From: Deltaproteobacteria bacterium
Lineage (GTDB): Bacteria; Desulfobacterota; DSM-4660; Desulfatiglandales; HGW-15
DNA: 39,666 bases
Assembly (NCBI GenBank): GCA_016930835.1
Contig: JAFGGA010000053.1
Location: 1-39,666 of the forward strand
Reading direction: 5' to 3'
The notes under the pieces were generated by a model, which was given only the letters and a program-made list of their open reading frames with translations, was not told the origin of the DNA and did not search any database. A program made the position numbers and the translations under genes. Positions 6,764 through 22,118 of this stretch are shown piece by piece; the stretch's first letter is position 1, and every line of letters starts with the position of its first letter.

Positions 6764-6929
6764 GGTATGCGGTAGGCGGATCTCATTTCTCCGGTTTTGT
6801 TTTTGGTTTTTACCATAAGCCGTACACCCTAAACCGTAAGCCCTATATTAAACTTTTCCGCCGTATATTTAAACCGGATTTTCAGGATCTGAACGCTTTA
6901 CTATTTTCATTTGGATATGGAGGTTAAAA

Positions 6930-7424
6930 ATGCCGATAAGTATATCTCTTGAAAAAACAAAAGAAAGCGCATTGGAATTGATGGGTAAGGGTTATCATTG
7001 AGGACCGGCTCTCCTGCAAGTTATGTGGGAAGTATATGAAATGGAAAATGAGGACCTGCTCTGGGCAGGTATTCCATTTATGGGAGGAATTGGTAGTCAG
7101 CAACAGGCGCCTTGTGGGGCGGTTACCGCGGCGGCCATAGTCCTTGGATTAAGATACCGGTGTTCTCTGTCGGACAGGGCGGGGGCGAAAAAGGCGAGAA
7201 ATACCGTTCGATACTATGCCGGAAAATTGGTCGATGCCTTCAGTCTAGAATTCGGTGATATTACTTGCATCGGGCTTTTGGGAATTGATTTCTCCAAACA
7301 GGGCGAATACAAAAAATTCATTCAATCATTGATGTGGAAAGACAAATGTGAGAGATACCTCCAATTCATTATTGAAAAGCTTTATGAATTTGAGGATGAG
7401 AGGGGCAATATTCTAACAATATAA
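6930..7424 (+). CDS. C-GCAxxG-C-C family selenoprotein (UGA = Sec24)
   Basis: Small redox protein of the C-GCAxxG-C-C (split-Soret-cytochrome-like) family, about 164 aa if TGA 6999-7001 is read as selenocysteine. GGAGG lies 5 nt upstream of ATG 6930. The N-terminus reads KESALELMGKGYH-Sec-GPALLQVMWE, with the TGA exactly where the family has its first motif Cys. Later Cys residues are C62 (QAPCGAVTAA), C78, C113 (GDITCIGLLG) and C140 (KDKCERY), fitting the family's spaced-Cys pattern. A hairpin just downstream (7012-7030) has its loop 17 nt after the UGA. A Sec-type selD lies 14 kb away. If not recoded, the 3' part would have to start at ATG 7023 and lose the motif. A redox role is inferred from the family; its partner is unknown. 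It is convergent with the nitronate monooxygenase gene. Confidence 0.82.
7012..7030 (+). promoter_or_regulatory. Candidate bacterial SECIS hairpin of the C-GCAxxG-C-C gene
   Basis: Seven consecutive pairs (TCCTGCA with TGTGGGA, including two G-T pairs) close a five-base loop AGTTA with G in second position. Exactly 17 nt separate UGA (ends 7001) from the loop. Bacterial SECIS elements bind SelB and are coding hairpins close behind the UGA with a G among the first loop bases, so position and form both fit. Confidence 0.65.
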
Positions 7425-21065: not shown

Positions 21066-22118
21066 ATGCCCGAAAATGATTCAAAACGTCTCACCCAAAC
21101 GGTTCGGGGATCGGGGTGAGCTTCCAAGCTGGGTCCGGGGGACCTGGATAAGGCGTTATGCGGCCTGGATGTCCCGAAACATCCTGACCTTTTAATAGGC
21201 CTGGACACATTTGATGATGCCGGGGTGTTTCGGTTGCGGGAGGACCTTGCCGTCATCCAAACGGTGGATTTTTTTACCCCGATCGTGGATGATCCTTATA
21301 CGTTCGGTCAGATCGCGGCCGCCAACGCGTTGAGTGATGTATATGCCATGGGAGGGAAACCTCTGACTGCCATGAATATCATCTGTTTCCCCATAAAAAA
21401 TTTGGATATATCCGTTCTCCAAGAGACCTTAAAGGGGGGCCTGGACAAGATCAAGGAAGCGGGGGCCTTGTTGGTGGGCGGCCACAGCGTGGAGGACGAT
21501 GAATTTAAATACGGTTTGTCCGTATTAGGGACGGTTCATCCAGATCGCATCCTGGCCAATCGAGGCGCCCGACCAGGTGACTATCTGGTACTGACCAAAC
21601 CCATCGGGACGGGGATTATCAATACGGCCATCAAAGGAAATTTGGCGGATAAAGGCTTGATAGATGAAGTGACCCGCATCATGGCCGCACTGAACAGGGC
21701 GGCGGCGGATGCATTTCTATCCTTTGATATTTCGGCATGTACCGATGTGACGGGCTTTGGGCTCTTGGGTCATGCCTGTGAGATGATCAATGATCAGGTT
21801 GTGGGTCTGGTGATCGATCCCGAAGAGATTCCATTGATCCGGGAGACATTAAGCTTCGCCCGGATGGGGATTGTACCGGCCGGTGCACGTAGGAACCTGG
21901 ATTTCCGGGGAAACCTGATTGTAGGTTTCGAAAAATTAGAGCCTGCCATGAGGGATATATTATTCGACCCCCAGACATCCGGTGGTCTCCTTGCGGCAGT
22001 CAGACCGGAACAAGCGGAGACCCTTGTGGAAACCCTAAAAAAAGCGGGTTTACAGGAGGCCTGTATTATCGGGGAGTTTGTCAAGGAACCAAAGGGTAAG
22101 ATTGTTATGAAGATCTAA
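21066..22118 (+). CDS. selD: Selenide, water dikinase SelD, itself a selenoprotein (UGA = Sec18)
   Basis: Makes selenophosphate from selenide and ATP, the Se donor for Sec-tRNA. 350 aa when TGA 21117-21119 is read as Sec. The N-terminus is LTQTVRGSG-Sec-ASKLGPGDL, so Sec18 and Lys21 occupy the catalytic Cys/Sec and Lys positions (GCGCK in E. coli, where the second Cys is dispensable; here it is Ser). Downstream are ETP-type motifs VQTVDFFTPIVDDPYTFGQIAAANALSDVYAMGG, CTDVTGFGLLGH and FDPQTSGGLL. AAAGG lies 7 nt before the ATG. Without recoding, an ATG-less truncated protein would lose the active site. The 3' end overlaps the ABC-F gene by 4 nt, tail to tail. Confidence 0.93.
21129..21147 (+). 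promoter_or_regulatory. Bacterial SECIS hairpin of selD
   Basis: CTGGGTCC (21129-21136) pairs with GGACCTGG (21140-21147) over eight positions (two G-T) around a GGG loop. The loop starts 17 nt after the UGA, the same spacing as in the C-GCAxxG-C-C gene. Stem strength and loop guanines fit SelB recognition. Confidence 0.75.

Follow-up and report, generated by a model that had tools for sequence, protein, structure and literature searches.

The window analysed here, a stretch of 39,666 nucleotides from an anaerobic Deltaproteobacteria bacterium, contains a gene that very probably encodes a selenoprotein, with UGA 6999 decoded as selenocysteine (Sec) through the hairpin at 7012-7030. Judged by its sequence, the gene (6930-7424) is the stand-alone HUGP domain of an already known kind of selenoprotein. 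The features are listed in Table 1.

Table 1. Coordinates of the selenoprotein gene, its recoding signals and selD in the window.
Feature	Position	Strand	Basis or content
Shine-Dalgarno-like GGAGG, 5′ of ATG 6930	6919..6923	+	sequence; similar purine-rich sites precede nearly all orthologue starts
Predicted stand-alone HUGP-type C-GCAxxG-C-C selenoprotein gene	6930..7424	+	164 aa; Sec24, Cys62, Cys113, Cys140
In-frame TGA, predicted Sec24 codon	6999..7001	+	TGA in 23 orthologues, TGC in 4; C or U at this column in wider PF09719 relatives
Bacterial SECIS-type hairpin	7012..7030	+	pairing of 7012-7018 with 7024-7030 around the loop 7019-7023 (AGUUA); A-U/G-C covariation of loop pair 7019-7022
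selD (selenophosphate synthetase), Se donor supply	21066..22118	+	TIGR00476, E 1.3e-99, on downstream part; AIRS domains on read-through protein

As stated in the preliminary description, a single reading frame extends from the GGAGG-preceded ATG to the TAA ending at 7424 and is broken exclusively by TGA 6999-7001. With the TGA taken as Sec, the read-through product comprises 164 residues and begins with MPISISLEKTKESALELMGKGYHUGPALLQVMWE, placing H-U-G-P at residues 23-26. The mechanical ORF listing started the gene at ATG 7023, exactly as had been foreseen for ORF callers, resulting in a protein of 133 aa (7023-7424) that misses the first 31 residues. This standard listing, and the fact that the shortened protein still matches PF09719 in Pfam minus the first 12 profile positions, would be in line with the TGA being a true stop, due to a sequencing error, a nonsense mutation or decay into a pseudogene, and with the real protein starting at ATG 7023. 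The comparison with orthologues renders this explanation exceedingly improbable. Searching 395 genomes of the phylum together with the GTDB species genomes yielded 26 further orthologues (27 including the window gene) in Desulfobacterota-type genomes and Chloroflexota. The codon in exact register is TGA in 23 of the 27 and TGC (Cys) in the remaining four. The homologue check proposed earlier thus found Sec or Cys encoded at this position throughout. Orthologues sharing the TGA reach down to 44-49% identity and across two phyla, and given the same TGA in 23 orthologues a sequencing error is untenable. Furthermore, the 23 codons 5′ of the TGA are conserved as protein (GYH, A10, the start and the ribosome site), which argues against a true stop, as does the conservation of the downstream hairpin at the base level. 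Sec24, C62 and C113 are invariant among the orthologues, and C140 is kept in over 90% of them.

Folding of the sequence downstream of the TGA resulted in a hairpin (UCCUGCA-AGUUA-UGUGGGA; −9.7 kcal/mol) of seven pairs, including two G-U pairs, with a spacing of 17 nt between UGA and loop and a G at loop position 2 (7020). This agrees with the seven-pair hairpin and its distance noted in the preliminary description. For bacterial SECIS elements a loop of 3-9 nt, a stem of 4-16 bp, a G at either of the two leading positions of the loop, a spacing of 16-37 and an MFE of at most −7.5 have been given (PMC13188914), and the window hairpin lies within every one of these limits. The folding energy of the single window sequence showed no excess over chance in comparison to shuffled sequences (z = −0.84 for 42 nt and +0.71 for 62 nt), so that the SECIS signal is a comparative one. 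The stem pairs are kept to 100% in 23/23 TGA genes and are invariant at the base level; as the seven pairs never vary, this represents conservation and not covariation. Covariation was found within the loop, which reads AGUU or GGUC in the TGA genes: the first and fourth positions form A-U in 18 and G-C in five genes, switching jointly in all five cases and with no mixed combination, and the pair type switches at no fewer than three places on the unrooted tree. This pattern in the window branch fits the N1-G-[G/U]-...-N2 loop pairing described by the model in PMC13188914. The constraint is also evident from codon usage. The hairpin codons (+4 to +10) showed a same-codon frequency of 0.777 compared to 0.372 ± 0.021 under synonymous shuffling (shuffle maximum 0.446, n = 300), which is twice the conservation that synonymous shuffling permits, and they represent the most constrained window of the scanned region, coinciding exactly with the hairpin. 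The codons on both flanks are free to vary: the residues Gly+1 and Pro+2 never change, yet all four codons are used for each. None of the four TGC orthologues retains an intact loop pair, and stem pairs are lost in them as well. On this comparison of sequences, the joint occurrence of TGA and hairpin provides the strongest evidence for recoding, and it is independent of folding energies; the doubt raised beforehand that a conserved hairpin might be missing is thereby settled.

The machinery for Sec incorporation is represented in the genome from which the window derives, where SelA, SelB, tRNA-Sec and SelD were all detected. We propose that SelB carrying Sec-tRNA would bind the hairpin and thereby allow UGA 6999 to be decoded as selenocysteine. 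Translation of the TGA into a different amino acid such as Trp, or an unspecific UGA read-through site, would likewise account for a frame that is open when TGA is sense, but is scarcely credible, as Trp is encoded by TGG within the same protein, TGA exchanges with TGC and not with TGG, other reading frames use TGA normally, and both a SECIS and the Sec machinery are present. The Sec/Cys exchange, the restriction of the hairpin to TGA genes and the Sec machinery of the genome support the original proposal of a Sec-encoding UGA with its SECIS, and TGA 6999-7001 is almost certainly a selenocysteine codon.

An in-frame TGA was also noticed in two further genes of this genome. The selD gene carries its own at 21117-21119 (GSG-U-ASKLGPGD); here ORF callers begin at GTG 21225 and miss the N-terminus. 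The second is a paralogue (L002, positions 1450-1911 on contig C42), a classical C-GCAxxG-C-C gene of the PF09719-type fold family with the TGA at the aligned position (GYN-U-AQS). It differs from the window gene in sharing only 26% identity at the protein level, in scoring 84 bits and thus above the TIGR01909 cut-off as the classical form does, and in having a downstream hairpin unrelated in sequence to that of the window gene.

The assignment to the C-GCAxxG-C-C family made in the preliminary description was borne out by the match to PF09719 (C_GCAxxG_C_C; E 1.9e-14, 54.2 bits versus a gathering score of 27), whereas the motif behind the family name holds in part: the central motif is C62-G-A-x-x-A/S in the window branch, and the last G (CGAxxG) is not kept. 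With TIGR01909 the protein scored 29.4 bits, below the cut-off of 47.4, which places it outside that subfamily. As in the PF09719 and TIGR01909 proteins, the first of the conserved positions is occupied by Sec or Cys, and there are four conserved Cys/Sec residues, but the window branch is distinguished by HUGP, QQQAPCGA, a longer N-terminus and CGAxxA/S instead of CGAxxG. The review PMC13188914 lists two forms (1 and 2) of C-GCAxxG-C-C selenoproteins (its refs 60, 61) as well as the HUGP/GUXX-star fusion, attributed there to Haft and Tolstoy 2025, mSystems. The latter corresponds to the best NCBIfam match, NF045501 (HUGP/GUXX-star fusion selenoprotein; E 1.1e-68, model positions 1-158 of 236), with a score of 231 bits that remains below the cut-off of 325. 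The window gene shares with NF045501 the whole N-terminal 158 residues, the HUGP motif, the position of the Sec codon and the SECIS hairpin. It differs in that the protein ends after the HUGP domain at residue 164, without the glutaredoxin-like GUxx-stop tail or a second Sec. Among the orthologues, HUGP is fused to the glutaredoxin-like Uxx-star domain in seven of the 27 (L019, L020 and L054-L058), and 20 are stand-alone or cut short. The fusion proteins end in GFGGGUxx with a TGA of their own, located three codons before the stop in the complete ones, and match NF041212 (Uxx-star glutaredoxin-like).

The distribution of Sec and Cys within the branch does not support the suggestion that the nucleophile had been upgraded from Cys to Sec. 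The Cys genes sit among the Sec genes on the unrooted tree, and the Cys label requires two changes. Two losses of Sec to Cys appear likelier than a change from Cys to Sec within the branch, and on these sequence data the Cys forms look derived. Three of the Cys genes (L050, L051 and L052) were found in genomes with full SelB, and tRNA-Sec was seen in two of these; here the HUGP gene has given up Sec although the genome keeps the Sec trait. The genome of the fourth (L062) shows only a partial SelB match below the cut-off and weak tRNA-Sec matches.

The AlphaFold2 model of the protein is all-helical (pLDDT 90, pTM 0.88), with Sec24 at a helix start and Cys62 and Cys113 at or beside helix N-termini. 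The search for solved relatives by sequence yielded as best hit a chance match (E 0.053), and comparison of the model by fold with the families listed gave neither a Foldseek match of E < 0.9 nor a VIA-align Z ≥ 5, so that none of the solved structures compared was convincingly similar. Sec24 together with the conserved Cys62, Cys113 and Cys140 probably constitutes a redox or soft-metal-binding site of this PF09719 protein, which would make it a thiol/selenol redox or metal-handling protein. Sec in the first position would provide a stronger and more readily re-reduced nucleophile than Cys. Of the Sec-dependent redox protein originally proposed, the Sec part is upheld by the comparative evidence and the PF09719 match, and the role as redox enzyme is suggested. 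A non-redox function, in which the recoding is correct but the protein acts as a carrier of metal or selenium, its Sec and three Cys residues serving as ligands of a soft metal or a cluster, is less likely but has to be taken seriously: the four conserved Cys/Sec residues lack a CxxC redox motif, no conserved neighbouring enzyme is present, and metal handling is known for several selenoproteins (review table, PMC13188914). Fusion of relatives to the glutaredoxin-like Uxx-star domain rather favours thiol/selenol exchange, and the replacement of Sec by Cys among orthologues is as found in redox sites. Clustering of 25 loci revealed no conserved neighbourhood pointing to a substrate; neighbours common to at least four loci were limited to an ABC transporter ATPase-like family (five scattered loci, non-adjacent) and to within-lineage synteny. 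No match was obtained in the plasmid collection searched.

For a redox protein, the C-terminal Uxx-star domain carried by relatives on the same chain suggests that the HUGP domain might exchange electrons with a glutaredoxin-type partner, which in the case of the window protein would be a separate glutaredoxin of the Cys type; the glutaredoxin-like proteins found in the window genome are exclusively Cys-type. No Uxx-star protein above the cut-off was found in the window genome or in several other genomes with the stand-alone form. The idea that the stand-alone form must always be paired with a Uxx-star protein on a separate chain was thus rejected.

These findings correct the start of a gene, which ordinary callers place 31 codons too late, and extend the HUGP selenoproteins by a stand-alone form. 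It is conceivable, though we lean slightly against it, that stand-alone HUGP represents a distinct selenoprotein family of Desulfobacterota-type genomes and Chloroflexota, truncated at the UGA in current annotation because the sole HUGP model requires the fused tail. Such a family would work with separate partners and keep one near-invariant SECIS hairpin across two phyla. Selection at the SECIS level is unusually clear in this branch, with a stem that never changes among the 23 Sec genes of two phyla and is degraded in the four Cys reverts, at least two of which reside in genomes retaining SelB and tRNA-Sec. For this reason the Sec/Cys pair offers a test, provided by nature, of the benefit of Sec in an uncharacterised family.
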